In this document: piece by piece, positions 4,229 through 27,418 of the stretch
Layout of the letters: the number at the start of each line of letters is the position of its first letter
Position numbering within the stretch: the first letter of the stretch is position 1
From: Trichlorobacter ammonificans
GTDB lineage: Bacteria; Desulfobacterota; Desulfuromonadia; Geobacterales; Pseudopelobacteraceae
NCBI RefSeq assembly: GCF_933509905.1
Contig: NZ_OW150024.1
Span: 2,096,001-2,160,000 of the forward strand
Length of the DNA: 64,000 bases
Reading direction: 5' to 3'
Translations under genes and position numbers: made by a program
Notes under the pieces: model-generated
Database searches by the model: none
The model's input: only the letters and a program-made list of their open reading frames with translations
What the model was told of the DNA's origin: nothing

Positions 4229-4346
4229 GCACGCGGATCATATCTGATTTTGGCGGATGTATGCGGATAAACATTAGATAGATAAGATTTTAAAAATCCG
4301 CGTACATCCGCTCAATCAGCATAATCTGCGTGCCATTGCCTTTGAT
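4229..4346. repeat. Dispersed intergenic hairpin repeat, copy A
   Basis: Two arms of about 40 bases, each with GCACGC(A/G)GAT and GCGGATGTA-CGGAT motifs, form an imperfect palindrome around an AT-rich centre (4268-4295). The minus strand of 4346-4280 aligns closely with the plus strand of 8438-8500, sharing ATCAAAGGCAATGGCACGC and a following GATTA, GCGGATGTACGC and AAAATCTT. It fills the space between the convergent dut and M16 genes, where the hairpin could also end transcription. Confidence 0.75.
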
Positions 4347-8399: not shown

Positions 8400-8588
8400 C
8401 ACGCAGAGCCGCGAAGTGCGCGGAGAAAACCGAACATCAAAGGCAATGGCACGCGGATTACGCGGATGTGGCGGATGTACGCAGATTTCAAAATCTTTTT
8501 CCTGGTGTGATGTATCCGCACGGATCCGCTCAAATCCGGCCTTTTCCGCGTGCAAGGATTTTCACTCCGTGTTCTCCTCGGCTCCACG
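8400..8588. repeat. Dispersed hairpin repeat, copy B, inside the znu operon
   Basis: A long imperfect palindrome. The left part carries ACGCAGAGCCGCGAAG, GGCACGCGGATTACGC and GCGGATGTACGCAGAT. The right part, read on the other strand, carries GTGGAGCCGAGGAGAA, GCACGCGGAAAAGG and GAGCGGATCCGTGCGGAT. The core is homologous to the repeat at 4229-4346 in opposite orientation. It separates znuC (stop at 8598) from znuB (start at 8377), so any znu transcript must contain this fold. Confidence 0.75.
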
Positions 8589-12916: not shown

Positions 12917-15382
12917 ATGCTCAAACCGACCCTGTTCAAAAAGTTTCTCTTCCCGTCCCTGCTCATTGCCCTGGGGCCGCTCCTGGCGGTGTCGGTCCTG
13001 CTTTACACCGGCCTGGAGCAGGTACGCGACCACCTGGCCCAGGAAGTGGCCCGGACCGCCGATCGGCAGGTCTCGGAAACCCTCCAGAACCGTGCCCGCC
13101 AGGTGGCGGAGTCGATTACCCATTTTCTCAGGGAACGGGAAAACGACCTGCGTTTTCTCTCCCGTTTTTCCCACGACCGGCAGATGCTCCTCGGTTTTTA
13201 CGCCGTCAGCCGTCGTGAAATCTGGCAGATTCGCAACGGACGGGAAGAACGCCGCCAGATTCCCCTTTACCGCTCCATTGCCCTGATCGGTCCCGATGGC
13301 CGGGAGCGACTGGTAGTCCGGGATGGCGAACCTGTTCCCGCGACTGCCCTGCGTGACGTCTCCCGTCCGGAGCAGACCGAATTCAAAACTGAAACCTACT
13401 TTCGCGATATTCGGCGGCTGAAGCCGGGAGAGATCTACGTCTCGCGGGTTACCGGCTTTCATGTCACCACCCCGGAACAGCAGGCAGGCCGTCAGTTCGA
13501 AGGGGTGATCCGCTTCGGCATGCCGCTGTTCCGTGCCGACGGACGCTTCGACGGTGCCCTGATTCTTTCCCTTGATCATCGCCACCTGATGGAATTCAGC
13601 CAGCATATCGACCCCGGTCCCGGCTACAGTTTCGTGGAGCCGAGCTATGAGAGCGCCAACTACGCCTTTCTGTTCGACGACGAGGGCTGGATCATCACCC
13701 ACCCCAAGTACTGGGATCTGCGGGGACTGGATGCCAACGGCCGGCTGGTCCCCCCCTATTCGGCCCGCTCCAGCCGGGAGGACATCGAAACCGGCCGCAT
13801 TCCGTTCAACCTCGACCATGCCGGCTTCATCCATCCCAACTACCCGCGGGTCGCGGAGGCGGTCCGCCAGCACCGGGTCGGCTCCGTTGAAACCACCAAC
13901 GTGGGACGTTCACGCAAGATCATGGCCTACGCACCGATCATCTACGACACCGGCACCTACCGCCGGCACGGCATTTTCGGCGGTGTCACCATCGGCCTGC
14001 AGATGGACCAGTATTACGAGCAGTCCAGTTCCGGCAGCCGGCTGATCAACCGGCAGCTGCGCCAGTTCCGCTACCGCAGCGCCTGGATCATGACCCTGAC
14101 GGCCCTGCTGGCCGCTCTGGCCGCCTGGCGGCTGGCCCGGGGAATCATCAAGCCGATCCAGAAGCTGAACCAGGAGGCCCACCGCCTGGCCGCCGGCGAC
14201 GCCGCCTCCCCCATCGCCGTTTCCGGCAGCGACGAACTGGCCCAGTTGACCGAAACCTTCAACCACATGGCCCGGGAACTGGAAGAACGGCGCCTGAACC
14301 TGCTCTCCACCCTGGAACAGCTCCAGCAGTCGCGGCGCGACATCCTTGATGAGCGGAACTTCAAGGAGAGCATCCTGGAAAGTATCTCCAGCGCCATCCT
14401 CACCTTCGACACCGGTGGCCGGCTTACCTCCACCAACAGCACGGCCCACAGTTTTCTCGGCCGGACCTGGCCCCTGGGCAGCCACTACGCAACGGTCTTC
14501 AGCGCCTGGGAGGGGGTACCGGCCCGCGTCGCCCGGGCGCTGAGCGAAGGAAGCGGCTACGGGCGGGAGCCGCTCAAGCTGCGCCGGGATTCCGGCATCC
14601 GCCATTTCGACCTGGGAATTTTCCCCATCGGTCCGGAGGGGAGCCAGGGACTGACCGTCACCCTGCGGGACGAAACCATCCGGGAAAAGCTGCGGGAGGA
14701 GACCATCCGCCTGGACCGGCTGGCCTCGCTGGGCCGGTTGGCGGCCGGTATTTCCCACGAGATTCGCAACCCGCTTACCGGCGTCACCCTGCTTTTGGAC
14801 GATCTCCATGACCGGGCCGCCCTGGCACGGGAAGACCGGGAGATGCTGGGACGGGCCATGGCGGAGATCGAACGGGTGGAACGGCTGGTAGCCTCACTGC
14901 TCAGCTTCGCTTCCCCGCCGCAGGCCGAATTCAGGATGGGACGCCTGGACGAAACCGTACAGGAGGTGGCGCTGCTGCTCAAACGCTCCTGCCGGCGCCA
15001 GCAGATCGAGCTGATCACCGACTGCCGCCGGCTGGAACCGTTCCCCTTTGATCCGGACAAGATCCGCCAGGCGGTGCTGAATCTGCTCAAGAATGCCCTG
15101 GAGGCGATGCCCGACGGCGGACGGCTGACCCTGAGCCTGCAGGAGGAGGAACAGCAGGCGGTCCTGCGGGTGGCCGACACCGGATCGGGGATCGCCGAGG
15201 CGGACCTGCCGCTGCTGTTCGAACCATTCTTCACCCGCAAGGGGGCCAGCACCGGCCTGGGGCTCTCCATCACCCGCCGTATCATCGAGGAGCATGGCGG
15301 CAGCATCGTTGCCGAGAATCGTTCCGCCGGGGGCGCCTGTTTCACGGTGCGGCTGCCAATGACGCCGGGCAGGCAGCAATGA
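12917..15382 (+). CDS. Membrane sensor histidine kinase, DctB-like
   Basis: An 821-residue kinase. A membrane segment at about residues 10-32 is followed by a large Cache-like periplasmic domain (to about 390), a second membrane segment (IMTLTALLAALAAW), HAMP, a PAS-like region (about 485-590), HisKA with AAGISHEIRNPLTG (His near 614) and HATPase (NLLKNALEAMPDG, DTGSGI, STGLGLSI). It is followed directly by a sigma-54 activator and then two TRAP dicarboxylate operons, so the likely ligand is a C4-dicarboxylate; that is inference from context. Confidence 0.9.
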   Translation: MLKPTLFKKFLFPSLLIALGPLLAVSVLLYTGLEQVRDHLAQEVARTADRQVSETLQNRARQVAESITHFLRERENDLRFLSRFSHDRQMLLGFYAVSRREIWQIRNGREERRQIPLYRSIALIGPDGRERLVVRDGEPVPATALRDVSRPEQTEFKTETYFRDIRRLKPGEIYVSRVTGFHVTTPEQQAGRQFEGVIRFGMPLFRADGRFDGALILSLDHRHLMEFSQHIDPGPGYSFVEPSYESANYAFLFDDEGWIITHPKYWDLRGLDANGRLVPPYSARSSREDIETGRIPFNLDHAGFIHPNYPRVAEAVRQHRVGSVETTNVGRSRKIMAYAPIIYDTGTYRRHGIFGGVTIGLQMDQYYEQSSSGSRLINRQLRQFRYRSAWIMTLTALLAALAAWRLARGIIKPIQKLNQEAHRLAAGDAASPIAVSGSDELAQLTETFNHMARELEERRLNLLSTLEQLQQSRRDILDERNFKESILESISSAILTFDTGGRLTSTNSTAHSFLGRTWPLGSHYATVFSAWEGVPARVARALSEGSGYGREPLKLRRDSGIRHFDLGIFPIGPEGSQGLTVTLRDETIREKLREETIRLDRLASLGRLAAGISHEIRNPLTGVTLLLDDLHDRAALAREDREMLGRAMAEIERVERLVASLLSFASPPQAEFRMGRLDETVQEVALLLKRSCRRQQIELITDCRRLEPFPFDPDKIRQAVLNLLKNALEAMPDGGRLTLSLQEEEQQAVLRVADTGSGIAEADLPLLFEPFFTRKGASTGLGLSITRRIIEEHGGSIVAENRSAGGACFTVRLPMTPGRQQ

Positions 15383-15441
15383 AATCGGAACAAGGTTTGC
15401 ATAAAAAATCGCCCAACAACCTGACCAACGGGCAGAGGACA

Positions 15442-16791
15442 ATGGAATCGATCCTGATCATCGACGACGAACCGTTTATCCGCGAAAACGTCCAGCGGGT
15501 GCTGTCGGAAGACGGCTACCGGGTGCTGGAGGCTGCCGACGGCGCCCAGGCACGGGAGCTGGTGCTGTCCGACGAAGTGGACCTGGCGCTGCTGGACCTG
15601 AACCTGGGACAGGAAGACGGCCTGGAGCTGCTCAAGTCCCTGCGGGAGCTGGATCCCCACCTGCTGGTGATCATCATCACCGGCTACGGCTCGGTGGAAT
15701 CGGCGGTGGAGGCGTTGCGCCTGGGAGCCTACGACTACGTCAAAAAGCCGTTCAAGGCCGATGCCCTGCGGGTCATCGTCAAGCTGGCGCTGCAGACCCA
15801 GGAACTGAAGCGGGAGGTGCGGGCACTGAAGCGGGAAGGCGGCATGCCGGGCAGCACACCGTTGCTGGGCGACAGTCCCGCCTTTACCCAAGTGGTGAAC
15901 CAGTTGCGCGACGTGGCCCGTATCCCCACCGCCACCGTGCTGATCACCGGCGAATCCGGCACCGGCAAAGAGTTGGCCGCCCGGGCGATTCACACCCTGT
16001 CCGACCGCTGCGACGCGCCCTTTGTGGCGGTCAACTGCGCCTCCATTCCAACGGAACTGATGGAAAGCGAGCTGTTCGGCCACGAGCGGGGCGCCTTCAC
16101 CGGCGCGGTCATCCGCAAGACCGGCCTGTTTGAGGAGGCCAACGGCGGCACCATCTTCCTGGACGAAATCGGCGACATGTACGCCTCCCTGCAGGCCAAA
16201 CTGCTGCGGGTACTGCAGGAACGCACCATCCGCCGGGTGGGAGGTGGCCGCGACCTGCCGGTGGATCTGCGGGTCATCGCCGCCACCAACCGCAACCTGC
16301 AGGAACGGATCAAACAGGGAACCTTTCGGGAGGACCTCTACTACCGCCTGAACGTGGTGCCGCTCCATCTCCCGCCGCTCAGGGAACGGCGGGAGGATAT
16401 CGGCCTGCTGGCCAAGTACTTCCTGGACAGCTTCAGCCGCTCCTTCGGAAAATCGTTCCAGGGAATCTCCGCCGCCGCCCTGGAGCTGCTCAGCACCTAC
16501 GCCTGGCCCGGCAACGTCCGTGAACTGCGCAACGTCATCGAGCGGATCTGCATCATGCGCAACGCCACCTGGCTTGAGCCGGAACACCTGCCGGCGGAGT
16601 TGCATGCCGTGATCCTTCCTCCTACCTCCGTCCAGCCCGCCGGCGGCCTGGAACAGGCGGTTGCCGAGTTCGAACGCCAGATGATCGCCCGCGCCCTGGC
16701 CGAGACCGACGGCAACGTGGTCAAGGCTGCCCTTGCCCTGAAGATCCCCCGCGGCACCCTGCGCTACAAGATGGAAAAGTACGCTTTATGA
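15442..16791 (+). CDS. Sigma-54-dependent response regulator, DctD-like
   Basis: A 449-residue NtrC-family activator. The receiver has phospho-acceptor Asp52 (LLDLNLG). The AAA+ domain has Walker A GESGTGKE, the sigma-54 contact loop GAFTGA, Walker B GGTIFLDEIGD and the arginine-finger region. A Fis-type HTH (NVVKAALALKIPRGTLRYKM) ends the protein. I start at 15442, where AGAGG precedes ATG; the frame opens at 15379 inside the kinase gene. It is the obvious candidate to bind the TGGC-N8-GCCA sites in front of both downstream dctP genes. Confidence 0.93.
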   Translation: MESILIIDDEPFIRENVQRVLSEDGYRVLEAADGAQARELVLSDEVDLALLDLNLGQEDGLELLKSLRELDPHLLVIIITGYGSVESAVEALRLGAYDYVKKPFKADALRVIVKLALQTQELKREVRALKREGGMPGSTPLLGDSPAFTQVVNQLRDVARIPTATVLITGESGTGKELAARAIHTLSDRCDAPFVAVNCASIPTELMESELFGHERGAFTGAVIRKTGLFEEANGGTIFLDEIGDMYASLQAKLLRVLQERTIRRVGGGRDLPVDLRVIAATNRNLQERIKQGTFREDLYYRLNVVPLHLPPLRERREDIGLLAKYFLDSFSRSFGKSFQGISAAALELLSTYAWPGNVRELRNVIERICIMRNATWLEPEHLPAELHAVILPPTSVQPAGGLEQAVAEFERQMIARALAETDGNVVKAALALKIPRGTLRYKMEKYAL

Positions 16792-16849
16792 GCCGAAACA
16801 GAAAAACTCAAAGATTTTAAAGCATTACAAGATCTTTACACATTTTTTA

Positions 16850-16865
16850 TGGCCAAAAACCGCCA
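16850..16865. promoter_or_regulatory. Candidate activator site upstream of dctPQM copy 1
   Basis: The 16-base palindrome-ended element TGGCCAAAAACCGCCA (TGGC-N8-GCCA) lies about 117 bp upstream of the sigma-54 promoter. The same pattern recurs in front of the second operon. Assignment to the adjacent activator is inference. Confidence 0.65.
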
Positions 16866-16973
16866 CTACGTCCCGCCCCCCGCGCTCCCACACCGTCCCC
16901 TCCGTTCGAACCAGCAGCATATCATACTGTAATCCCTATAAAAAAACTGAACAGCACCTCCCCCACACCCTTC

Positions 16974-16987
16974 GGCACACCATTTGC
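16974..16987 (+). promoter_or_regulatory. Sigma-54 promoter of dctPQM copy 1
   Basis: GGCACACCATTTGC has exactly GG-N10-GC (-24 GG at 16974-16975, -12 GC at 16986-16987). It lies 75 bases upstream of dctP and directly downstream of the sigma-54 activator gene. Confidence 0.8.
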
Positions 16988-17062
16988 CATAGAACCGCAT
17001 TCCGCTATGACAGTAACACGCATGCACTCGCTTGCATCACAACTCAAAGGAGGAGTATCCAA

Positions 17063-18061
17063 ATGTTCAAGAAGATCAGCGTTGCCGTTCTGACCCTGGC
17101 CCTGGCCCTGCCGCTGGGCGCACAGGCATCCCCCATTGTCATCAAGTTCAGCCACGTGGTCGCCACCAACACCCCCAAGGGAGCCGCTGCCGAGTACTTC
17201 AAGAAGCTGGCAGAGGAGCGCACCAAAGGCAAGGTCAAGGTGGAGGTCTACCCCAACAGCCAGCTCTACAAGGACAAGGAAGAGATGGAGGCCCTGCAGC
17301 TGGGCGCCGTGCAGATGCTGGCCCCTTCCCTGGCCAAGTTCGCCCCCTTGGGCCTGAAAGAGTTCGAGGTATTCGACCTGCCCTTCATCTTTGACGACTA
17401 CAAGGACCTCCATGCCGTAACGCAAGGACCGGTGGGGGCCAAGCTGCTCAAGAAGCTGGAAAGCAAGGGGCTGATGGGCCTGGCTTACTGGGACAACGGC
17501 TTCAAGGTCATGTCCGCCAACAAGCCGCTCAAGAATGTTGCCGATTTCAGGGGGCTCAAGATGCGCATCCAGTCCTCCAAGGTGCTGGACTCCCAGATGC
17601 GCTCCGTGGGTGCCATTCCCCAGGTCATGGCCTTCTCGGAAGTCTACCAGGCACTGCAGACCGGCGTGGTGGACGGCACCGAGAACCCGCCGTCAAACCT
17701 TTACACCCAGAAGATGCATGAAGTGCAGAAGTACGTCACCGTCTCCAACCACGGCTACCTGGGCTACGCCGTGCTGGTGAACAAGAAGTTCTGGATGGGC
17801 CTGCCGGCCGACATCCGCGCCACCCTGGAAGGGGCCATGAAGGATGCCACCAAGTACGCCAACGACATCGCCAAGAAGGACAACGACGACGCCCTGGCGG
17901 CAGTGAAGAAGTCCGGCAAGTCCCAGATCATCACCCTGACCCCGGCCGAGCGCCAGGCATGGAAGAAGGCCATGGACAAGGCCCACAAGGACAACGCTGC
18001 CCGCATCGGCAACGACATCGTCCAGGAAGTCTACAAGGCAACCGGCTACAACCCCAACTGA
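17063..18061 (+). CDS. dctP: TRAP transporter substrate-binding protein DctP, copy 1
   Basis: A 332-residue periplasmic binding protein for a C4-dicarboxylate-type TRAP importer, with signal peptide MFKKISVAVLTLALALPLGAQA. Family blocks are IKFSHVVATNTPKG, EVYPNSQLY, LGAVQMLAPSLAKF, FDLPFIF and GLKMRIQSSKVLDSQ, whose Arg binds the substrate carboxylate in known DctPs. GTENPPSNLYTQKMHEVQKY follows. AAGGAGGAG precedes the start. It differs from copy 2 (20545) at one residue only (Ala versus Thr near residue 312). A terminator-like hairpin follows it inside the operon. Confidence 0.95.
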   Translation: MFKKISVAVLTLALALPLGAQASPIVIKFSHVVATNTPKGAAAEYFKKLAEERTKGKVKVEVYPNSQLYKDKEEMEALQLGAVQMLAPSLAKFAPLGLKEFEVFDLPFIFDDYKDLHAVTQGPVGAKLLKKLESKGLMGLAYWDNGFKVMSANKPLKNVADFRGLKMRIQSSKVLDSQMRSVGAIPQVMAFSEVYQALQTGVVDGTENPPSNLYTQKMHEVQKYVTVSNHGYLGYAVLVNKKFWMGLPADIRATLEGAMKDATKYANDIAKKDNDDALAAVKKSGKSQIITLTPAERQAWKKAMDKAHKDNAARIGNDIVQEVYKATGYNPN

Positions 18062-18080
18062 GTCCAACCTGATCAACATC

Positions 18081-18111
18081 GGCCGCTGCGGCCTCCGCAG
18101 CGGCCTTTTTT
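18081..18111 (+). terminator. Intra-operon terminator/attenuator after dctP copy 1
   Basis: An 11-bp GC-rich stem (GGCCGCTGCGG / CCGCAGCGGCC) with a 3-base loop is followed by six T. It lies between dctP and dctQ, which fits partial termination giving more binding protein than membrane subunits. Confidence 0.85.
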
Positions 18112-18135
18112 GCGAACAACTCCGGGAGAGAACCC

Positions 18136-18807
18136 ATGATGAAATATCTGGATCACTTAGAGGAAATTATCATCACCTTCCTCATCGGCGCGGCAACGCT
18201 GATCATCTTTGCCGCCGTGCTGCACCGCTACGCCGCCGGCCTGCCGATCCCCGGCCTGCAGGACTGGCTGCTGGGCATCAACCTGGGCTGGGCCCAGGAG
18301 CTCTGTATCTACATGTTCGTCTGGATGGCCAAGTTCGGCGCTGCCTACGGCGTCCGCACCGGCATCCATGTCGGCGTGGACGTACTGGTCACCCGCCTGC
18401 CGGAGCCATGGCGGATAAAGTGCGTGCTGCTGGGGATTACCGGCGGTGCGCTCTTCACCGGCATCATCGGCGCCCTGGGAGCCGCCTTTGTCTGGGAGAA
18501 CGGCATGCATTACGCCGTCTACAGCAAGCTGGGGATGGATGTTTCGGAAATCATTGAAGGGCCCATCACGCCGGATCTTGAGTGGCCCACCTGGATCATC
18601 TATTCCGCCGTTCCCCTGGGGTCGTTCCTGATGTGCTTCCGTTTCCTGCAGGTGGGCTGGGCGTTCTTCCGCACCGGTGAGCTGCCCCATCACGACCACG
18701 GCCACGTGGACGGCATCGAAGAGGAAGCTGTGGACTCCACTGACGCTCTCGAAGAGTACGAGGAGCATAAATTTGACCACGAGACCAGCGGAGGAGGCGT
18801 AAAATGA
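18136..18807 (+). CDS. dctQ: TRAP transporter small permease DctQ, copy 1
   Basis: A 223-residue four-helix membrane subunit of the TRAP importer. Hydrophobic segments lie near residues 12-30, 52-70, 95-118 and 155-175. The family motif AQELCIYMFVWMAKFGAAYG is followed by RTGIHVGVDVL. The C-terminal 45 residues are acidic and His-rich (PHHDHGHVDGIEEE). The start has GGGAGAG upstream, and the stop overlaps dctM by four bases. Copy 2 differs mainly in the first 50 residues and the last 40. Confidence 0.93.
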   Translation: MMKYLDHLEEIIITFLIGAATLIIFAAVLHRYAAGLPIPGLQDWLLGINLGWAQELCIYMFVWMAKFGAAYGVRTGIHVGVDVLVTRLPEPWRIKCVLLGITGGALFTGIIGALGAAFVWENGMHYAVYSKLGMDVSEIIEGPITPDLEWPTWIIYSAVPLGSFLMCFRFLQVGWAFFRTGELPHHDHGHVDGIEEEAVDSTDALEEYEEHKFDHETSGGGVK

Positions 18808-20183
18808 GTTCAACTGCCATCACATTTGAGGTTTTCAGTAAAAAGAAGGCCGCTCTCTGGTTGCTCGGTATTGCCGTCGTATTGTTCGGTCTGAGCTCCC
18901 TGGGACATGCCGGTATCGTCTTTGCGCTGCTGGCCGGCCTGATGCTGACCGGCATGCCGATCTCCATCTCCCTGGGCCTGACCGTCTTGGTCTTTCTCTT
19001 CTTCTTCTCCAACGTCCCCACCGAAGCGGTGGCGTTAAAGCTCTTCACCGGCATCGAGAAGTTCGAGATCATGGCCATCCCCTTCTTCATCCTGGCCGGC
19101 AACTTCCTGACCCACGGCGGCGTGGCCAAGCGGATGATCAACTTCGCCACCGCACTGGTGGGACACCTAAACGGTGGCCTGGCCCTGGGCGGTATCGTGG
19201 CCTGCGCCCTGTTTGCCGCGGTATCCGGCTCCAGCCCCGCCACCGTGGTGGCCATCGGCTCCATCCTGTTGCCGGCCATGGTCAAGCAAGGCTACCCGAT
19301 GAAGTTCGGCGTCGGCGTCATCGGCACCGCCGGCGGCCTGGGAATCCTGATCCCCCCCTCCATCGTCATGGTCATCTACGCCGTTTCCACCAACGCCTCC
19401 ATCGGCCAGTTGTTCATCGCCGGCATCATCCCCGGCATTCTGCTGGCCCTGACCCTGATGGCCGTCACCTGGGTAGTGGCCAAAAAGCGCAACTACCCCC
19501 GGCAGCCACGGGCCTCCTTCAGTGAAATCGTTCGCACCTTCCGCGAGAGTGTCTGGGGACTGTTCCTGATCGTGGTGGTCATCGGCGGTATCTACTCCGG
19601 CCTGTTCACTCCCACCGAGGCGGCCGCCATGAGCGCAGTCTACGCCTTCTTCGTCTCGGTCTTCGTCTACCGCGACCTGGGGCTGAAGGACATCCCCAAG
19701 GTGCTGCTTTCCTCGGCCAGCATGTCCGCAATGCTGCTCTACATCATCACCAACGCCGTGCTCTTCTCCTTCCTGCTCACCTCCGAACAGGTGCCCCAGA
19801 ACCTCACCGCCTGGATGGTGGGACTGGGCCTCTCATCCGTCACGTTCCTGATCTTCGTCAATATCCTGCTGCTGGCGGCCGGCAACTTCATGGAGCCCTC
19901 CTCCATCCTGCTGATTACCGCGCCGCTGCTCTTCCCCATGGCCATGGAGCTGGGCATCGATCCGATCCACCTGGGGGTGCTGATGACCGTCAACATGGAG
20001 ATCGGCATGATCACCCCGCCGGTGGGCCTGAACCTCTACGTTGCCAGCGGTATATCACGGCTGGGACTGACTGAGACCACCAAGGCCTGCGCCCCCTGGA
20101 TTCTGGTGATGCTGGTTTACCTCACCATCATTACCTACATCCCCGCCATCTCCCTCTGGCTGCCCAACCTGCTCTACAAGTAG
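18804..20183 (+). CDS. dctM: TRAP transporter large permease DctM, copy 1
   Basis: A 459-residue integral membrane protein of the ion-transporter superfamily, about 12 helices, which forms the transport channel with DctQ. Typical DctM sequences are FKxFxGIEKFEIMAIPFFILAGN-like (here LFTGIEKFEIMAIPFF), AAVSGSSPATVVAIGS, GTAGGLGILIPPSI and MEIGMITPPVGLNLYV. The first 25 residues and a stretch around 195-245 differ from copy 2, while the rest is almost identical, also at base level. Its start overlaps dctQ (ATGA). Confidence 0.95.
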   Translation: MSSTAITFEVFSKKKAALWLLGIAVVLFGLSSLGHAGIVFALLAGLMLTGMPISISLGLTVLVFLFFFSNVPTEAVALKLFTGIEKFEIMAIPFFILAGNFLTHGGVAKRMINFATALVGHLNGGLALGGIVACALFAAVSGSSPATVVAIGSILLPAMVKQGYPMKFGVGVIGTAGGLGILIPPSIVMVIYAVSTNASIGQLFIAGIIPGILLALTLMAVTWVVAKKRNYPRQPRASFSEIVRTFRESVWGLFLIVVVIGGIYSGLFTPTEAAAMSAVYAFFVSVFVYRDLGLKDIPKVLLSSASMSAMLLYIITNAVLFSFLLTSEQVPQNLTAWMVGLGLSSVTFLIFVNILLLAAGNFMEPSSILLITAPLLFPMAMELGIDPIHLGVLMTVNMEIGMITPPVGLNLYVASGISRLGLTETTKACAPWILVMLVYLTIITYIPAISLWLPNLLYK

Positions 20184-20211
20184 CAGCCACAAGCCATACC
20201 CCCGCACCATC

Positions 20212-20244
20212 AGCGGGCCTGTCCAACGGACAGGCCCGCTTTTT
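20212..20244 (+). terminator. Terminator of dctPQM copy 1
   Basis: A 13-bp perfect stem (AGCGGGCCTGTCC / GGACAGGCCCGCT) with loop AAC is followed by five T. It marks the end of duplication unit 1. Confidence 0.92.
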
Positions 20245-20326
20245 ATCCCGCTGATAGTTTTCTCTGCCCGCCAGTGTTACGGGTGATCATCCTGGGGCCG
20301 AAACGCCATTACTTATCATTTCTTTA

Positions 20327-20342
20327 TGGCCAAAATCCGCCA
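20327..20342. promoter_or_regulatory. Candidate activator site 1 upstream of dctPQM copy 2
   Basis: TGGCCAAAATCCGCCA matches the site at 16850 at 15 of 16 bases. It lies about 130 bp upstream of the second sigma-54 promoter. Confidence 0.65.
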
Positions 20343-20350
20343 CACCATCA

Positions 20351-20366
20351 TGGCTAAAATTCGCCA
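20351..20366. promoter_or_regulatory. Candidate activator site 2 upstream of dctPQM copy 2
   Basis: TGGCTAAAATTCGCCA keeps the TGGC-N8-GCCA pattern. It starts 24 bp after the previous site. Confidence 0.65.
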
Positions 20367-20368
20367 CG

Positions 20369-20384
20369 AGGCCTTAATACGCCA
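20369..20384. promoter_or_regulatory. Degenerate activator site 3 upstream of dctPQM copy 2
   Basis: AGGCCTTAATACGCCA matches the TGGCCAAAATCCGCCA form at 12 of 16 positions and starts 18 bp after the preceding site. Another weak match, TGGGGCCGAAACGCCA, lies at 20293-20308. The 361-base gap 20184-20544 holds only the terminator, these sites, an AT-rich stretch (20400-20455) that could bend, and the promoter. Confidence 0.4.
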
Positions 20385-20463
20385 CTGAAGCCGACACGAC
20401 AAAATCATATACACTTTTATAATTATTGACTAAAAGTTTATTATACTCACATCATGCGCTTCC

Positions 20464-20477
20464 GGCACACCCTTTGC
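20464..20477 (+). promoter_or_regulatory. Sigma-54 promoter of dctPQM copy 2
   Basis: GGCACACCCTTTGC has exact GG-N10-GC spacing and differs from the copy 1 promoter core at one base, although the flanking DNA is otherwise dissimilar. It lies 67 bases upstream of the second dctP. Confidence 0.8.
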
Positions 20478-20544
20478 TCTAAAACGACATCTCAGTTTCC
20501 AGGCAAACAGAAGTAGTAAAGAAAACATAAGGAGGAGTATCCAA

Positions 20545-21543
20545 ATGTTCAAGAAGATCAGCGTTGCCGTTCTGACCCTGGCCCTGGCCCTGCCGCTGGG
20601 CGCACAGGCATCCCCCATTGTCATCAAGTTCAGCCACGTGGTCGCCACCAACACCCCCAAGGGAGCCGCTGCCGAGTACTTCAAGAAGCTGGCAGAGGAG
20701 CGCACCAAAGGCAAGGTCAAGGTGGAGGTCTACCCCAACAGCCAGCTCTACAAGGACAAGGAAGAGATGGAGGCCCTGCAGCTGGGCGCCGTGCAGATGC
20801 TGGCCCCTTCCCTGGCCAAGTTCGCCCCCTTGGGCCTGAAAGAGTTCGAGGTATTCGACCTGCCCTTCATCTTTGACGACTACAAGGACCTCCATGCCGT
20901 AACGCAAGGACCGGTGGGGGCCAAGCTGCTCAAGAAGCTGGAAAGCAAGGGGCTGATGGGCCTGGCTTACTGGGACAACGGCTTCAAGGTCATGTCCGCC
21001 AACAAGCCGCTCAAGAATGTTGCCGATTTCAGGGGGCTCAAGATGCGCATCCAGTCCTCCAAGGTGCTGGACTCCCAGATGCGCTCCGTGGGTGCCATTC
21101 CCCAGGTCATGGCCTTCTCGGAAGTCTACCAGGCACTGCAGACCGGCGTGGTGGACGGCACCGAGAACCCGCCGTCAAACCTTTACACCCAGAAGATGCA
21201 TGAAGTGCAGAAGTACGTCACCGTCTCCAACCACGGCTACCTGGGCTACGCCGTGCTGGTGAACAAGAAGTTCTGGATGGGCCTGCCGGCCGACATCCGC
21301 GCCACCCTGGAAGGGGCCATGAAGGATGCCACCAAGTACGCCAACGACATCGCCAAGAAGGACAACGACGACGCCCTGGCGGCAGTGAAGAAGTCCGGCA
21401 AGTCCCAGATCATCACCCTGACTCCGGCCGAGCGCCAGGCCTGGAAGAAGACCATGGACAAGGCCCACAAGGACAACGCTGCCCGCATCGGCAACGATAT
21501 TGTCCAGGAAGTCTACAAGGCAACCGGCTACAACCCCAACTGA
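20545..21543 (+). CDS. dctP: TRAP transporter substrate-binding protein DctP, copy 2
   Basis: A 332-residue periplasmic dicarboxylate-binding protein identical to copy 1 except for Thr instead of Ala in KK(T)MDKAH. The first roughly 870 bases show no difference by eye and the few differences cluster near the 3' end. It has the same signal peptide and the same AAGGAGGAG ribosome site. Ligand specificity must therefore be the same as copy 1. Any functional difference between the operons should come from regulation or from the permeases. Confidence 0.95.
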   Translation: MFKKISVAVLTLALALPLGAQASPIVIKFSHVVATNTPKGAAAEYFKKLAEERTKGKVKVEVYPNSQLYKDKEEMEALQLGAVQMLAPSLAKFAPLGLKEFEVFDLPFIFDDYKDLHAVTQGPVGAKLLKKLESKGLMGLAYWDNGFKVMSANKPLKNVADFRGLKMRIQSSKVLDSQMRSVGAIPQVMAFSEVYQALQTGVVDGTENPPSNLYTQKMHEVQKYVTVSNHGYLGYAVLVNKKFWMGLPADIRATLEGAMKDATKYANDIAKKDNDDALAAVKKSGKSQIITLTPAERQAWKKTMDKAHKDNAARIGNDIVQEVYKATGYNPN

Positions 21544-21562
21544 TTCCTGCCTGATCGACACC

Positions 21563-21593
21563 GGCCGCTGCGGCCTCCGCAGCGGCCTTTTTT
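21563..21593 (+). terminator. Intra-operon terminator/attenuator after dctP copy 2
   Basis: The same 11-bp stem and six-T run as at 18081-18111 is conserved exactly, while the bases just before it differ between copies. This suggests selection on the hairpin. Confidence 0.85.
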
Positions 21594-21617
21594 GCGACTA
21601 TCCCCGGGAGATATCCA

Positions 21618-22289
21618 ATGATGAAATACCTTGACCGTTTGGAGGAGATCGTCATCGCCTTCCTCATCGGTACGGCAACACTGATCATCTTTGCTGCCGT
21701 TCTCCATCGCTACACCGCCGGCCTGCCGATCCCCGGCCTGCAGGACTGGCTGCTGGGCATCAACCTGAGCTGGGCCCAGGAGCTCTGTATCTACATGTTC
21801 GTCTGGATGGCCAAGTTCGGCGCTGCCTACGGCGTCCGCACCGGCATCCATGTCGGCGTGGACGTACTGGTCACCCGCCTGCCGGAGCCATGGCGGATAA
21901 AGTGCGTGCTGCTGGGGATTACCGGCGGTGCGCTCTTCACCGGCATCATCGGCGCCCTGGGAGCCGCCTTTGTCTGGGAGAACGGCATGCATTACGCCGT
22001 CTACAGCAAGCTGGGGATGGATGTTTCGGAAATCATTGAAGGGCCCATCACGCCGGATCTTGAGTGGCCCACTTGGATCATCTATTCCGCCGTCCCCCTG
22101 GGGTCGTTCCTGATGTGCTTCCGTTTCCTGCAAGTGGGCTGGGCGTTCTTCCGCACCGGTGAGCTGCCCCATCACGACCACGGCCACGTGGAAGGCATCG
22201 AAGAGGAGACCGTGGACTCCACCGACGCCCTGGAAGAGTACGAGGAGCATAAATTTGCAGACGAGGCGACCAGGGGAGGTGTGAAATGA
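21618..22289 (+). CDS. dctQ: TRAP transporter small permease DctQ, copy 2
   Basis: A 223-residue four-helix subunit. Relative to copy 1 it has scattered changes in residues 7-51 (for example DRLEEIVIAFLIGT, HRYTAG, INLSWAQ), then a run of about 145 identical residues, then a changed acidic tail (HVEGIEEETVD, ADEATRGGVK). The start has GGGAGAT upstream. The stop overlaps the next start by four bases. Confidence 0.93.
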   Translation: MMKYLDRLEEIVIAFLIGTATLIIFAAVLHRYTAGLPIPGLQDWLLGINLSWAQELCIYMFVWMAKFGAAYGVRTGIHVGVDVLVTRLPEPWRIKCVLLGITGGALFTGIIGALGAAFVWENGMHYAVYSKLGMDVSEIIEGPITPDLEWPTWIIYSAVPLGSFLMCFRFLQVGWAFFRTGELPHHDHGHVEGIEEETVDSTDALEEYEEHKFADEATRGGVK

Positions 22290-23665
22290 GTACCGCCGTA
22301 ATCGGACTTCAGCAACTGACCAAGAAAAAAGCCGCTATTATACTTGCCGGCATAGCCGTCGTATTGTTCGGTCTGGGCTCCCTGGGGCATGCCGGTATCG
22401 TCTTTGCGCTGCTGGCCGGCCTGATGCTGACCGGCATGCCGATCTCCATCTCCCTGGGCCTGACCGTCTTGGTCTTTCTCTTCTTCTTCTCCAACGTCCC
22501 CACCGAGGCAGTAGCGTTAAAGCTCTTCACCGGCATCGAGAAGTTCGAGATCATGGCCATCCCCTTCTTCATCCTGGCCGGCAACTTCCTGACCCACGGC
22601 GGCGTGGCCAAGCGGATGATCAACTTCGCCACCGCACTGGTGGGACATTTCCGCGGCGGACTGGCCCTGGGTGGTGTGGTGGCCTGCGCCCTGTTTGCCG
22701 CGGTATCCGGCTCCAGCCCCGCCACCGTGGTGGCCATCGGCTCCATCCTGTTGCCGGCCATGGTCAAGCAAGGCTACCCGATGAAGTTCGGCGTCGGCGT
22801 CATCGGCACCGCCGGCGGCCTGGGGATCCTGATCCCCCCCTCCATCGTCATGGTCATTTATGCGGTGTCGGTGAACGAATCCATCGGCAAGCTGTTCATC
22901 GCCGGCATCATCCCCGGCCTGCTCCTGGCAGCGACCTTAATGGGCGTCACCTGGGTAGTGGCCAAAAAGCGCAACTACCCCTGCCAGCCCCGTGCTTCGG
23001 TTGGCGAGGTTATCCGATCCTTCCGGGAGAGTTTCTGGGGGCTGTTCCTGATCGTGGTGGTCATCGGCGGTATCTACTCCGGCCTGTTCACCCCCACCGA
23101 GGCGGCCGCCATGAGCGCAGTCTACGCCTTCTTCGTCTCGGTCTTCGTCTACCGCGACCTGGGGCTGAAGGACATCCCCAAGGTGCTGCTTTCCTCGGCC
23201 AGCATGTCCGCAATGCTGCTCTACATCATCACCAACGCCGTGCTCTTCTCCTTCCTGCTCACCTCCGAACAGGTGCCCCAGAACCTCACCGCCTGGATGG
23301 TGGGACTGGGACTCTCATCCGTCACGTTCCTGATCTTCGTCAATATCCTGCTGCTGGCGGCCGGCAACTTCATGGAGCCCTCCTCCATCCTGCTGATTAC
23401 CGCGCCGCTGCTCTTCCCGGTGGCCATGGAGCTGGGCATCGATCCGATCCACCTGGGGGTGCTGATGACCGTCAACATGGAGATCGGCATGATCACCCCG
23501 CCGGTGGGCCTGAACCTCTACGTTGCCAGCGGCATATCACGGCTGGGACTGACCGAGACCACCAAAGCCTGTTTGCCTTGGATTCTGGTGATGCTGGTTT
23601 ACCTCACCATCATTACCTACATCCCCGCCATCTCCCTCTGGCTGCCCAACCTGCTCTACAAGTAG
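22286..23665 (+). CDS. dctM: TRAP transporter large permease DctM, copy 2
   Basis: A 459-residue channel subunit. The N-terminus (MSTAVIGLQQLTKKKAAIIL) and residues around 125-130 and 195-245 differ from copy 1, including Asn-Glu-Ser-Ile-Gly-Lys in place of Asn-Ala-Ser-Ile-Gly-Gln and a Cys in KKRNYPCQPRAS. Long flanking stretches are identical at base level, including silent sites. All core DctM motifs are intact, so the protein should be functional. Confidence 0.95.
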   Translation: MSTAVIGLQQLTKKKAAIILAGIAVVLFGLGSLGHAGIVFALLAGLMLTGMPISISLGLTVLVFLFFFSNVPTEAVALKLFTGIEKFEIMAIPFFILAGNFLTHGGVAKRMINFATALVGHFRGGLALGGVVACALFAAVSGSSPATVVAIGSILLPAMVKQGYPMKFGVGVIGTAGGLGILIPPSIVMVIYAVSVNESIGKLFIAGIIPGLLLAATLMGVTWVVAKKRNYPCQPRASVGEVIRSFRESFWGLFLIVVVIGGIYSGLFTPTEAAAMSAVYAFFVSVFVYRDLGLKDIPKVLLSSASMSAMLLYIITNAVLFSFLLTSEQVPQNLTAWMVGLGLSSVTFLIFVNILLLAAGNFMEPSSILLITAPLLFPVAMELGIDPIHLGVLMTVNMEIGMITPPVGLNLYVASGISRLGLTETTKACLPWILVMLVYLTIITYIPAISLWLPNLLYK

Positions 23666-23693
23666 CAGCCACAAGCCATACCCCCACTCCATC

Positions 23694-23722
23694 AGCGGGC
23701 CTGTCCAACGGACAGGCCCGCT
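23694..23722 (+). terminator. Terminator hairpin of dctPQM copy 2, without the T run
   Basis: The 13-bp stem is identical to 20212-20240 but is followed by GCATTTCTG instead of TTTTT. Termination here may be weaker, allowing read-through into the response-regulator gene. Confidence 0.7.
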
Positions 23723-23818: not shown

Positions 23819-24517
23819 ATGCGTATTCTGATTATTGAAGACGAGCAGAAAATAGCCGAGGCCCTGAAGCGGGGGCTGGAAGCGGAAGGGTACGAAGCGG
23901 TGACGGCTGTCACCGGCGAGGAGGGATTCTACTGCCTGAGCACCGAGTTCTTCAACCTCCTGCTCCTGGACCTGATGCTGCCGGGACGGGACGGGCTGGA
24001 GATTCTCACCACCATCCGCGACAAGGGGTACACCCTGCCGGTGCTGGTGCTGACCGGTCGCGACACGGTTGAAGACCGGGTACTGGGGTTGGACAGCGGC
24101 GCCGACGACTACCTGGTCAAGCCCTTCGCCTTTCCGGAGCTTTTGGCCCGCATCCGGCTGCTGTTGCGTCGGGGCAGACCTGAGCCGATGGGACAGGTAT
24201 CCCTGGCCGACCTCGAGCTGAACCTCTCCACCCACCAGGCGCTCCGGGACGGACAGCTCCTGGACCTGACCCAACGGGAGTTCGAGCTGCTGGAATATCT
24301 GCTGCGGCACCAGGAACACGTGGTCTCCCGCGAGATGCTGGCCCACGACATCTGGAAGGTCAAGGAGCGTTCCACCCCGCTGGACAACGTGATCGACGTC
24401 AATATCGCCCGCCTGCGCCGCAAGGTGGACGGCCCCTTTGCCCGCAAACTGATCCGCACCATCCGTGGCGTCGGCTTCATGGCAACGGTGCGGGAGGCCC
24501 ATGAACCGGCCCACTAA
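23819..24517 (+). CDS. OmpR-family response regulator
   Basis: A 232-residue DNA-binding regulator. The receiver has acidic pocket E7-D8 and phospho-acceptor D51 (LLLLDLMLPGRDG), with the conserved Thr in VLTGRD and Lys in DYLVKPF. The C-terminal winged helix contains LTQREFELLEYLLRH and IRTIRGVGFM. It is CusR-like in outline. I start at ATG 23819 (GGAG upstream, first residues MRILIIEDE); the frame is open earlier but lies within the promoter. It overlaps the kinase gene by 17 bases. Confidence 0.93.
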   Translation: MRILIIEDEQKIAEALKRGLEAEGYEAVTAVTGEEGFYCLSTEFFNLLLLDLMLPGRDGLEILTTIRDKGYTLPVLVLTGRDTVEDRVLGLDSGADDYLVKPFAFPELLARIRLLLRRGRPEPMGQVSLADLELNLSTHQALRDGQLLDLTQREFELLEYLLRHQEHVVSREMLAHDIWKVKERSTPLDNVIDVNIARLRRKVDGPFARKLIRTIRGVGFMATVREAHEPAH

Positions 24518-25862
24518 CATCCGCCTGCGCTTCACGCTGCTCTACGGCGCCGCCCTGGTGGCGACGGTGGTGCTCTTTTCGGCCGGTGTCTACTACTTTG
24601 TGCAGAAACTGCTCTTCAGCCAGATCGACAACCACCTGCGCAAGGATCTGGCCACGGTTGTCGAATACCTGCGCCGCGACCCCGCCGGGCTGGAAAAGCT
24701 GGCCCGTTTCGGCTCCGTCCATTATTTCCGGGTACAAAAAAACGGCCGGACGCTGGTCTCGTCCAACGAGTGGCTCGAAAGCGGTCTGCAGTATCAACGG
24801 CCCGCTATGGCTTCGTCTCCGGAGCCGGTTTCCGTCATCAACGCCGACAACAAACCCTTCCGCATCATCAGCCGCCAGGAACAGGAAGACCAGCTCCAGT
24901 ACCTGATCACGGTTGCCCATGAAGAGGGAACCTACCGCCGCACCCTGCGGACCCTGGGCCTGATCATCCTGCTGATCCTGCCGGTCTCCATCGCAGGCTC
25001 TCTGGCGGTGGGCTACCTGATCGCCGGCCGGGTACTGGCTCCCATCACGGCCATCACCCAACGGGCAGCAGATATTTCGGCGGAAAACCTGTCGGCCCGG
25101 TTGCCGGTGGACGGCAGTGACAACGAACTGAGCCGGCTGGCCGTGGTCTTCAACCAGACCTTCACACGCCTGGAGGAGTCTTTCGAACGGCTGCGGCGTT
25201 TCACCGCCGACGCTTCCCACGAGCTGCGCACCCCGCTGACCGCCATCCGCAGCATCGGCGAAACCGCCCTGCAACAGCAACCCGGCGCGCTGGACTGCCA
25301 CGAAACCATCGGCAGTATCCTTGAGGAAACCGATCGGCTGGTACAAACCGTGGAAGCGCTGCTGATACTCAGCCGCGCCGACAGTCAGGCCCTTGAGCGG
25401 CAACCGGTGGATGTCGGCGAGCTGGTGGCTGACGTTGTCGACTTCCTCGGCGTGCTGGCTGAGGAAAAAAGCCAGAGGCTGCACTATCTCCGCAATACCG
25501 ACCTGACCATTGCCGCCGATCCCGGCGTGCTCCGGCGCGCCTTTCTCAACCTGCTGGACAATGCCATCAAGTATTCACCGCAGCGGGGTGATATCACCAT
25601 CGCCCTGTTCCGTAACGAACAGGGCGAGACGCTGCTGGACTTCGTCGATTGCGGTCCCGGCATTCCGGATGAGGAGAAGGAGCGGATCTTCAACCGCTTC
25701 TATCGTCTCGACGCCGGGCGGGCCCGCACGAACGGCGGTACCGGCCTGGGACTCGCCATCGCCAAAACCGCCGTCGAAGTCCACGGCGGCACCATCACCC
25801 TGCTGGATGCCCCATCAGGTGGCGCATGCTTCCGGATCAGTTTTCCCGGCTCCCGATCCTGA
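24501..25862 (+). CDS. Membrane sensor histidine kinase partner
   Basis: A 453-residue kinase with two membrane segments (about residues 12-32 and 150-172) bracketing a roughly 115-residue periplasmic domain. It continues with HAMP, HisKA (TADASHELRTPLTAIRS, His near 237), HATPase (NLLDNAIKYSP, DCGPGIP, GTGLGLAIAK). The start at 24501 is preceded by GGGAGG. The architecture is that of CusS/QseC-type kinases. The signal is unknown, but the cytochrome gene that follows shares the operon's operator-like element. Confidence 0.92.
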   Translation: MNRPTNIRLRFTLLYGAALVATVVLFSAGVYYFVQKLLFSQIDNHLRKDLATVVEYLRRDPAGLEKLARFGSVHYFRVQKNGRTLVSSNEWLESGLQYQRPAMASSPEPVSVINADNKPFRIISRQEQEDQLQYLITVAHEEGTYRRTLRTLGLIILLILPVSIAGSLAVGYLIAGRVLAPITAITQRAADISAENLSARLPVDGSDNELSRLAVVFNQTFTRLEESFERLRRFTADASHELRTPLTAIRSIGETALQQQPGALDCHETIGSILEETDRLVQTVEALLILSRADSQALERQPVDVGELVADVVDFLGVLAEEKSQRLHYLRNTDLTIAADPGVLRRAFLNLLDNAIKYSPQRGDITIALFRNEQGETLLDFVDCGPGIPDEEKERIFNRFYRLDAGRARTNGGTGLGLAIAKTAVEVHGGTITLLDAPSGGACFRISFPGSRS

Positions 25863-25914
25863 CGGGAATGTCAGGAAAGCGTCAGTTGTCCCCCCTCACC
25901 GCCTTTGTTACAAA
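25859..25914 (+). promoter_or_regulatory. Promoter and operator of the hexaheme cytochrome gene
   Basis: CTGAC (25859), GTCAG (25870) and GTCAG (25881) again have 11-base spacing. They are followed by -35 TTGTCC (25886-25891), a 17-base spacer and -10 TACAAA (25909-25914). It is near-superimposable on 23729-23784 although the rest of the flanking DNA differs. The first box overlaps the kinase stop codon. Confidence 0.65.
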
Positions 25915-25978
25915 GGGATGCACGAATTCAATTCAATTTTCGGCAGCTCCGAAGCTCGAACACCAGAGGAGGAACAGC

Positions 25979-27418
25979 ATGTACCGGACCGTAATGGCAG
26001 CAGCCCTGATCCTGACCGCCCTGCCCGCACTGGCGGCTCAGTATCCCACGGCACAACAGGCGGAGATCGCGCACCGCGCCACCTACGTTGGTGGCGACGC
26101 CTGCAAGGAGTGCCACGGCGACATCCACGCCACATGGAAAACCACCTGGCATACCCTGAAGGCAACCCAGGGGCCGGCACTGGGCAAGCAGAACGAGAAG
26201 AACATCTACGAGTGGGTTCGCAAGGACTGGGACAAGCTGGACACCTACCTGATCCTGGACCAGAAGGACAAGAACACCAACTACGTCATGACCAGGAAGA
26301 TCAAGCCGGAAGAGGTCGGCTATGTGGTTGGCCAGATTCGCAAACAGCGCTACCTGGCCTACTATGACGGCTCCCCCACCGAGGCGTGGCTCCAGACCAC
26401 CAAGGACGGCGGTATCTCCTGGAGCATCGACAAGAGCACAACCGTTCAGTTCCCCGGCAACAAGGACCGTGCCGGCTGGAAATTCCTGGTACTGGAAATG
26501 AAGCCGAAAGCCGGTGAGCTGAACAAGAACAACTACGGCGAGTACCGTTCATGGCAAGAGCGCTGCATCGGCTGCCACACCACCGGATTCGATGCCAAAG
26601 CCTGGGACACGGCCAAGGCGGAATTCAAAGCCGGCAAACGCGCCGACCTGAAGGACACCTTTGTTGCCGACCTGCGCGTAAGCTGTGAAATGTGTCACGG
26701 CCCCGGTGGCGTGCATGTAAAGAGTCCAAGCAAGGAAAACATCATTCAACCGGCAAAAATCACCGATGTTGCCGCACGTCAAATGGTCTGCGGTCAGTGT
26801 CACACACGCCCCGACAAGAACAACCACAGTCCGCTGGCCCAGGATCTGCGCGGTTACCGTCTGGGCGACCGCTACCAGGACTTCGCCTCCTATACCCGTC
26901 CGGCATGGGGCAAGGGCAACCGTCAGGTATCCATCGACGGCAAGGGGCGCCGCGACCATCAGATGGATATGGATATTCAGCTTTCCGTCACCATCAAGGG
27001 CGCCCACAGCGTTCATGCACAAATGGCCTGTTTCGACTGCCACGACTCGCATAGCATCGGTAACAACACGCAGAACCCGCGCCTGAAGAAATCCAAGGTC
27101 GAAACCTGCGCCGCCTGCCACAAGGGTCAGGCCGAGGCCGTGCTGAAGGTTCTGGATGGCCGCAAGGGCTGGGAAAAGGCGGGGTACCCCAACTGGGGCA
27201 CCGAGTACGGCCGCAACGCCAACAATCAGCACATCTTCAACTTTGATGAGCAGGGCCGTTCCTATGGCCTCAAGCCGTCCCAGTACCACTGGGCCCTGAA
27301 GAAGGATGGCGACGCCAAGAAAGAGGCCGACTGGTCCGCCATCTGGCCCTGGGAAAAGGCAACCTGCGAGAAGAAGGGGATGACCGTCAAAGTGGGCGCC
27401 AAGCCCTGGGAAATGTAA
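25979..27418 (+). CDS. Hexaheme c-type cytochrome
   Basis: A 479-residue exported electron carrier with signal peptide MYRTVMAAALILTALPALAA and six CXXCH heme sites: CKECH, CIGCH, CEMCH, CGQCH, CFDCH and CAACH. The order and spacing resemble cytochrome c554-like multiheme proteins of Geobacter. No lipobox is present, so it is probably periplasmic. GAGGAGG precedes the start. Its promoter carries the same triple GTCAG element as the adjacent two-component operon, so it is the likely target of that system. The redox partner is unknown. Confidence 0.9.
   Translation: MYRTVMAAALILTALPALAAQYPTAQQAEIAHRATYVGGDACKECHGDIHATWKTTWHTLKATQGPALGKQNEKNIYEWVRKDWDKLDTYLILDQKDKNTNYVMTRKIKPEEVGYVVGQIRKQRYLAYYDGSPTEAWLQTTKDGGISWSIDKSTTVQFPGNKDRAGWKFLVLEMKPKAGELNKNNYGEYRSWQERCIGCHTTGFDAKAWDTAKAEFKAGKRADLKDTFVADLRVSCEMCHGPGGVHVKSPSKENIIQPAKITDVAARQMVCGQCHTRPDKNNHSPLAQDLRGYRLGDRYQDFASYTRPAWGKGNRQVSIDGKGRRDHQMDMDIQLSVTIKGAHSVHAQMACFDCHDSHSIGNNTQNPRLKKSKVETCAACHKGQAEAVLKVLDGRKGWEKAGYPNWGTEYGRNANNQHIFNFDEQGRSYGLKPSQYHWALKKDGDAKKEADWSAIWPWEKATCEKKGMTVKVGAKPWEM

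Follow-up and report, generated by a model that had tools for sequence, protein, structure and literature searches.

Probable patchy concerted evolution of a tandem dctPQM operon in Trichlorobacter ammonificans and a second species

The whole stretch of DNA analysed here, hereafter the window, comprises 64,000 nucleotides of the Trichlorobacter ammonificans genome (contig NZ_OW150024.1, positions 2,096,001 to 2,160,000). It carries two head-to-tail copies of dctPQM, the operon encoding the three subunits of a tripartite ATP-independent periplasmic (TRAP) transporter. Along their length, the copies are alternately near-identical and clearly diverged, and the same tandem was found in a second species, represented by genome G012. 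Very probably, this pattern reflects an ancestral dctPQM tandem under patchy concerted evolution, through gene conversion, in both species. Gene conversion between an older pair had been proposed in the first-pass annotation, made from the letters of the window alone, and the finding of a second species with the same tandem gives this proposal strong support. The locus is a useful case, in which an entire bacterial operon is subject to patchy concerted evolution and a second species serves to date the patches.

Two intact copies with uneven divergence

The two units are 3194 bp each and align in register with 0 indels; their starts lie 3482 bp apart, leaving 288 bp between the units. Each unit spans the sequence from the dctP ribosome-binding site to a terminator-like hairpin 3' of dctM (Table 1). 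In copy 1, the Pfam families DctP, DctQ and DctM all exceeded their gathering scores, in the order P-Q-M within one operon, and the genes of copy 2 have lengths equal to those of copy 1 and are without stops. Judged from their reading frames, both copies are intact. A search of the genome with PF06808 found exactly two DctM proteins, and thus no third one as an in-genome donor.

The 158 mismatches between the units are clustered, with none in the first 894 bp. They amount to 5 of 999 positions in dctP (one residue, A303T), 12 of 74 in the dctP-dctQ gap, 39 of 672 in dctQ (13 residues), 100 of 1380 in dctM (31 residues) and 2 of 57 in the tail. The longest identical runs measure 894, 304, 218, 146, 134 and 119 bp.

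For the comparison of silent sites, the unit was divided into block A (dctP core), block B (dctP end and dctQ start), block C (dctQ middle), block D (dctQ end and dctM start, the latter represented by dctM codons 2-34 for silent divergence, dS), block E (dctM codons 35-180), block F (dctM codons 181-269, 268 bp) and block G (dctM from codon 270 on). Copies 1 and 2 are designated W1 and W2 in the window and G012_1 and G012_2 in G012; G-numbers denote the genomes compared and L-numbers the loci compared. Between W1 and W2, dS was 0.00 in A, 0.32 in B, 0.01 in C, 0.08 in E, 0.48 in F and 0.05 in G, with 0.30 in the dctQ part and 0.94 in the dctM part of D. Within the G012 pair, the values were 0.15 in A, 0.12 in B, 0.39 in C, 0.29 in E, 0.35 in F and 0.32 in G, with 0.87 and 0.82 in the two parts of D. 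Between species, the dS of W1 and G012_1 was at least 0.40 in all blocks; in block F, the divergence of W1 from W2 equals that from the other species. It can be seen that in blocks A, C, E and G the paralogues are closer to each other than to their orthologues, silent sites included.

Runs of agreement were also tested over the 496 silent sites variable among relatives, using 5000 column permutations. The longest run between W1 and W2 covers 127 silent sites (17077-17936) and was reached in 0 of 5000 permutations; a second run, of 65 silent sites in dctQ, gave p = 0.019, and the three following runs listed were singly non-significant (p 0.56 to 0.94). The G012 copies share a run of 45 silent sites (p = 0.0002). 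None of the six between-genome pairs reached 0.05 in this test.

Most of the first-pass annotation was borne out by these comparisons: two complete head-to-tail dctPQM units of 3194 bases, their coordinates and patches, a DctP identical save for one residue, and an uneven silent divergence, with dS between 0.00 and 0.94 across blocks, so that uniform divergence was set aside. The diverged patches that it named were right, and two more have to be added, one in the dctP-dctQ gap and one at the 3' end of dctQ. Its claim that the stretches between the patches are identical at silent sites holds for the dctP core (0 of 127) and the dctQ middle (0 of 58); it fails for the dctM stretches, in which a few variable silent sites are changed (7 of 81 in one, 7 of 114 in the other).

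Two explanations without conversion bear directly on these identical blocks. Strong codon selection could in principle keep them alike, and DctP is a conserved protein. At the variable silent sites of the dctP core, W1 and G012_1 differ in 71 of 127 positions and W1 and W2 in none, and therefore codon selection is excluded as the cause of the identity; the probability left to this explanation is negligible. An assembly artefact, which the first-pass annotation had named among the findings that would overturn it, is likewise extremely improbable, with no observation in its favour: the genome is one contig of 3,058,983 bases, the copies have different promoters and 158 differences, and the tandem recurs in another assembly, G012, within a contig of 148,737 bases.

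The same tandem in a second species

A dctP search of 57 genomes, including the one under study, revealed G012 with two close dctP genes 3.4 kb apart. The gene order of its locus (L113) is that of the window: UbiD, kinase, regulator, two successive P-Q-M sets, second kinase and cytochrome. The regulators of the two loci are 86% and the kinases 81% identical, and the two genomes are therefore taken as distinct species. The search was extended to 141 genomes of the order, again including the own one. A close dctP (E up to 1e-100) was present in 67 of them, and two close dctP within 5 kb on one contig occur in four, namely the own genome, G012, G122 and G125. Whole-operon doubling was found in the own genome and G012 alone, in a search made by dctP in which fragmented assemblies may hide others.

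The inter-copy spacers of the window and G012 align with a score of 62.4 (z 26.5; 134 of 169 positions identical). The promoter pairs within each genome score 17.3 in the window (z 6.9) and 28.5 in G012 (z 12.5), and the window promoters are diverged although the neighbouring dctP genes are identical between copies over their core. On this alignment the two spacers are clear orthologues. Since the spacers are orthologous and the synteny is shared, with modest support from dctM codons 181-216, the duplication very probably predates the split of the window species and G012.

Site patterns across the four copies point in the same direction. Over 3117 columns, 301 two-by-two patterns were concerted, 29 orthologous and 8 of the cross type, which serves as control; the excess of orthologous over cross patterns gave p = 0.00075, and the corresponding counts at the amino-acid level were 11 and 2. 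Sites differing between copies coincided in both species at 59 positions, compared to a mean of 15.8 and a maximum of 39 in 1038 circular shifts, and to a mean of 27.8 and a maximum of 43 in 5000 draws stratified by variability among relatives without a resolved tandem. In 60-column windows the correlation between species was modest (Spearman 0.33, reached by 1 of 50 shifts). As the sites are not independent, these coincidence and pattern statistics are guides.

Two histories with a younger tandem have to be weighed against this evidence. In the first, the duplication was recent and one copy then took up foreign pieces of a dctPQM type (type A) from other Trichlorobacter by homologous recombination. 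Alleles of dctM types A and L have indeed been exchanged in the genus (G006/G008, G009), the VNES docking-loop form of DctM copy 2 also occurs in G006, G004b and G007, and the DctM protein tree places W2 beside G006 and G004b (support 53), a group which it also joins, weakly, in block B (support 55). However, promoters as far apart as z 6.9 beside identical dctP are unlike a recent duplication, the G012 tandem shares the copy-specific residues at 11 positions, against 2 of the cross type, and the orthologous G012 spacer largely refutes a recent origin. This history is improbable. In the second, tandem duplications arose independently in both species and diverged later at fast-evolving places. 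It would account for the grouping of within-genome copies in most blocks, and the dctQ-dctM junction is variable among aligned relatives. Spacer orthology, the coincidence of diverged sites after stratification, the 29 orthologous to 8 cross patterns and the very uneven dS within one pair all speak against it; moreover, by alignment score, each spacer matches the spacer of the other species better than the upstream promoter in its own genome. Independent duplication is therefore very improbable. Unequal crossing-over followed by re-duplication is also unlikely, because the promoters would then be expected to be homogenised too.

Several observations weigh against an ancestral tandem, or limit how far it can be pressed. 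By identity alone the spacer pair is not distinct, at 134 of 169 positions versus 110 of 136 for the gappier pair within G012. The orthology of promoter 1 is weak: the upstream regions of the two species align at z 12.2, versus z 12.8 for the window upstream region with the G012 spacer, and the case rests mainly on the presence of one palindrome rather than two and on a common -12 variant. The tandem was seen in one other species only, and the assemblies of G004, G007, G009 and G014 are fragmented or gapped at this locus. Additionally, dctM alleles move between lineages, and some allele sharing may be import rather than descent.

The G007 locus (L114) has a gap of N letters in dctM, near position 4138, at the position of block F. 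The contigs of G004, G009 and G014 end within the operon, and second copies are possible in all four assemblies.

Age of the patches

By approximately unbiased (AU) tests, the orthologous topology is rejected in every block other than F (p <= 0.0043). Taken by itself, this result could be due to homogenisation in one species or the other. W1 and W2 are, however, grouped together (support 96-100) in the best trees for A, C, D, E and G, and therefore the window genome was homogenised in these blocks. Homogenisation of the dctQ 3' end of the window genome took place after the species split. Block B is a different matter. Its best tree places W2 weakly (55) with G006, G004b, G007 and G014 and not with W1, and its AU result is explicable by homogenisation in G012 alone, whose dS is 0.12 there. 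The dctP-dctQ junction patch therefore cannot be dated.

Codons 181-216 of dctM are the sole patch with tree support, which is modest, for a divergence before the species split. The best tree pairs W1 with G012_1 and W2 with G012_2 (AU 0.945 versus 0.042 for the concerted topology). This support has its counterweights: in the same codons the concerted topology has a Shimodaira-Hasegawa (SH) value of 0.059 and the cross topology an AU value of 0.082, and over the whole of block F the concerted topology stands at AU 0.21, or 0.15 with the four copies alone. A 46-bp core giving p = 0.002 was picked after the data were seen; the pooled old-looking stretches, also picked afterwards, leave the concerted topology at 0.28. 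Codons 217-269 and the dctM 5' end (codons 1-34) favour no topology, and the dctM 5' end was dropped as an old island, as the AU test does not decide. The trees thus suggest that the diverged patches differ in age and do not form one class.

A history of the locus can be proposed from these patterns. The common ancestor of the window species and G012 would have carried the dctPQM tandem including its sigma-54 promoter. In each descendant, the copies would have been repeatedly overwritten by non-reciprocal homologous recombination inside the transcribed unit, presumably dependent on RecA, and conversion would end on the left where homology ends, at the ribosome-binding site, and on the right near the terminator. 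The most recent conversion, very young, would be that of dctP and of the middle of dctQ, with conversion slightly older over most of the remaining dctM, and older still, although later than the split, over the dctQ 3' end, with the dctP-dctQ junction undated. Codons 181-216 of dctM have probably been unconverted since before the split. The route may have been within the chromosome, between sisters or via conspecific DNA, which are indistinguishable here. A likely consequence would be a common pool of interchangeable binding protein that feeds two membrane units differing in expression and perhaps in docking. Because conversion made the DctP proteins nearly identical and left the membrane units and promoters different, the locus offers a natural experiment on how two TRAP membrane units divide a shared binding protein between them. 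It also calls for caution, as gene trees of dctP or dctM in the genus would misdate the duplication and confuse the copies.

Promoters and regulators

A sensor histidine kinase and, directly 3' of it, a sigma-54-dependent response regulator precede the tandem. They are labelled DctB-like and DctD-like here, after the DctB/DctD pair of DctPQM systems. Each copy is preceded by a sigma-54 promoter-like site, and the identical 15 letters of the copy 1 site also stand upstream of copy 1 in G012. Upstream of promoter 1 there is a single palindrome and upstream of promoter 2 a pair; a pair with the same 24-bp spacing also occurs upstream of dctP in G002, G003, G005, G009 and G011. Genome-wide, the palindrome pattern occurs 4 times and a reversed control pattern once, and 3 of the 4 matches are in these two promoters. 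The fourth, at genome position 903038, lies inside a 135-codon open frame with no sigma-54-like site within 1500 bp, and was set aside as a chance match. The neighbouring kinase and sigma-54 regulator probably control both copies, each copy through a different sigma-54 promoter, with the palindromes as putative binding sites of this predicted activator.

The surroundings of the promoters vary. In G012, a stretch of 190 bp (L113, about 8695-8884) lies between the sigma-54 site and dctP copy 1 and is not found in the window; its imperfect inverted ends match at 17 of 21 positions after a one-base shift, and its appearance is that of a small mobile element inserted in the leader. In G005 and G006, a second PAS kinase between the kinase and regulator and a major facilitator superfamily (MFS) transporter between the regulator and dctP were recognised by Pfam (window 15379-17063 compared with L118 9748-14467 and L115 8933-13416). 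There is no room for either gene in the window genome or G012. Gap lengths suggest that the second kinase is also present in G002, G008, G009 and G011 and not in G003, G007 and G014, and that the MFS gene is present in the other genomes read, except G002. On the 3' side of the tandem, window positions 23819-27418 hold an OmpR-type regulator, a histidine kinase and a multihaem cytochrome; a kinase and a cytochrome adjoin the tandem in G012 as well. Elsewhere in the window, positions 4289-4346 and 8436-8493 form an inverted repeat with 58-nt arms, 84% complementary and 4089 nt apart.

Table 1. Features of the tandem dctPQM locus, in window coordinates
Feature	Coordinates	Strand	Basis
Sensor histidine kinase (dCache, HAMP, HisKA, HATPase)	12917..15382	+	Pfam; directly 5' of sigma-54 regulator
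Sigma-54-dependent response regulator	15379..16791	+	Pfam Response_reg, Sigma54_activat, HTH_8
Palindrome TGGC-N8-GCCA, single, 5' of promoter 1; probably an activator site	16850..16865	+	Pattern match
Sigma-54 -24/-12 promoter-like site, copy 1, GGCAC-N5-TTGCC	16974..16988	+	Pattern match
Repeat unit, copy 1	17047..20240	+	Pairwise comparison of units
Probable conversion tract A, 894 bp, 0 mismatches to copy 2	17047..17940	+	Comparison, trees, silent-site test
dctP copy 1, substrate-binding protein	17063..18061	+	PF03480, E 6e-113
dctQ copy 1	18136..18807	+	PF04290
Probable conversion tract C (dctQ middle), 304 bp, 0 mismatches	18287..18590	+	Comparison, trees, silent-site test
dctM copy 1	18804..20183	+	PF06808, E 1.7e-133
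Diverged island F of dctM, codons 181-269	19343..19610	+	Trees, dS, alignment
Terminator-like hairpin, copy 1, homogenised too	20213..20239	+	Sequence
First palindrome TGGC-N8-GCCA upstream of promoter 2	20327..20342	+	Pattern match
Second palindrome, 24 bp downstream of first	20351..20366	+	Pattern match
Sigma-54 -24/-12 promoter-like site, copy 2	20464..20478	+	Pattern match
Repeat unit, copy 2	20529..23722	+	Pairwise comparison of units
dctP copy 2, differs by A303T	20545..21543	+	Comparison with copy 1
dctQ copy 2	21618..22289	+	Comparison with copy 1
dctM copy 2, VNES form of docking loop	22286..23665	+	Comparison with copy 1, alignment
Terminator-like hairpin, copy 2	23695..23721	+	Sequence

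Docking loop and function

The nearest solved binding protein is 9dsy, named C4-dicarboxylate-binding DctP (E 6.4e-100), and both copies are predicted to be TRAP transporters of the C4-dicarboxylate type. The protologue of T. ammonificans gives a G+C content of 61.3% and describes an acetate-dependent organism with weak growth on succinate, negative for malate and fumarate (PMC10811743).

In work on the sialic acid transporter HiSiaQM, residues N354 and S356 of HiSiaT are assigned to the interface which the elevator side forms with the binding protein; the effect of S356Y was among the strongest in that region, and that of N354Y was weaker, although significant (PMC9352664). These residues align with N197 and S199 of DctM, which, like E272, are identical in both DctM copies. 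The copies differ around them, at positions 196, 198 and 202, all falling in codons 181-216, the part of the island which holds the loop used by the solved relative HiSiaQM to dock its binding protein. The docking loop reads TNASIGQ in copy 1 (TNSSIGQ in G012) and VNESIGK in copy 2 (VNESIGR in G012). Among the 80 best of 575 relatives, position 196 is T in 79, and V together with E198 in one, L033 (UBA5608), apparently the genus member G004. VNES is also found in G006, G004b and G007, and G009 has TNASIGQ. Judged by these best 80, VNES appears to be a derived state within this genus.

In block F, the ratio of replacement to silent divergence (dN/dS) was 0.19 and 0.18 for the paralogues and 0.12 and 0.14 for the orthologues. 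As no value above 1 was found in the retained patches, adaptive specialisation of the two transporters is at most a possibility. The first-pass annotation had suggested that the patches are where the transporters specialise. Specialisation for substrate is unlikely, at least at the binding step, since the binding proteins differ at one residue; the part of the suggestion that stands is perhaps a difference in docking or expression, for which the data leave room. A further reading, put forward tentatively and rather doubtful, is that selection holds two docking-loop versions apart, TN[A/S]SIGQ in copy 1 and VNESIG[K/R] in copy 2, while conversion keeps DctP uniform. The two membrane units would then draw on a single interchangeable DctP pool and differ in their docking kinetics or coupling. 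If true, the copy identity kept in the docking loop of both species would be a footprint of selection against conversion.

Types of dctM in the genus and at other loci

Two types of dctM, about 70% identical, exist in the genus, and their distribution (compared with the regulators over L115, L116, L117, L118 and L119) cuts across the regulator tree. G006 and G008, sisters by regulator (support 100), have different dctM types. The G009 contig L116 joins a T. lovleyi-like regulator to a type-A dctQ and dctM start, which suggests either that recombination joined two operons at a point within the genes or that the assembly is chimeric; several genomes in this comparison are fragmented assemblies, in which chimeras are possible. 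Type-A dctM is nearer to the dctM of L034, L035, L037 and L038 (titled Desulfobacterota, 84-86%) than to that of G005. Apart from its type-A operon, G004 has a different dct operon on L123 (3622 bases), with P 77%, Q 68% and M 84% identical to the window.

Among the best 80 of 575 relatives, 9 loci contain two or more pieces of M or of P with identity above 40%. In L037, L085 and L111 a single dctP match is split in two; in L086, L090, L095 and L098, additional dctP-like genes of lower relatedness lie upstream; and L055 and L103 have a second dctP (63%) 3' of dctM, with a distant DctM (52-54%) also in L055. No second DctM above 60% was found among these 9 loci.

Comparison with known systems

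In its architecture the locus resembles DctPQM systems under a kinase and sigma-54 regulator pair: the three subunits are recognised by Pfam in the order P-Q-M, and the kinase and sigma-54 regulator are adjacent. In the genome paper of G. bemidjiensis, DctPQM is given the role of a fumarate/proton symporter (PMC2996986). Unlike such a system, the whole operon is doubled here. HiSiaQM has a homologous DctM component in which N354/S356 align with N197/S199; in contrast, its Q and M subunits are fused and its substrate is sialic acid. G122 and G125, of the same order, also have nearby dctP copies. However, these are dctP-only doublets with 78% and 76% nucleotide identity and, in the stretches read, one dctQM beside them, and they display no homogenisation.

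A literature search at title level found no published concerted evolution or gene conversion of a TRAP transporter or dctP. Concerted evolution of prokaryote duplicates is known for tuf, amoCAB/hao, psbA, fla, etf and others, according to a survey (PMC6053082) in whose main text the word transporter is absent. The 26 genes of that survey are cases over the full gene length; concerted evolution confined to a portion of a sequence is named there as a task for the future. As in the cases described there, several of which are subunits of one complex, the paralogues within a genome are closer than the orthologues, silent sites too. Unlike in those cases, homogenisation is patchy here and copy-specific islands persist in two species. 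The tandem dctPQM operon is therefore a new and datable example of a known process.

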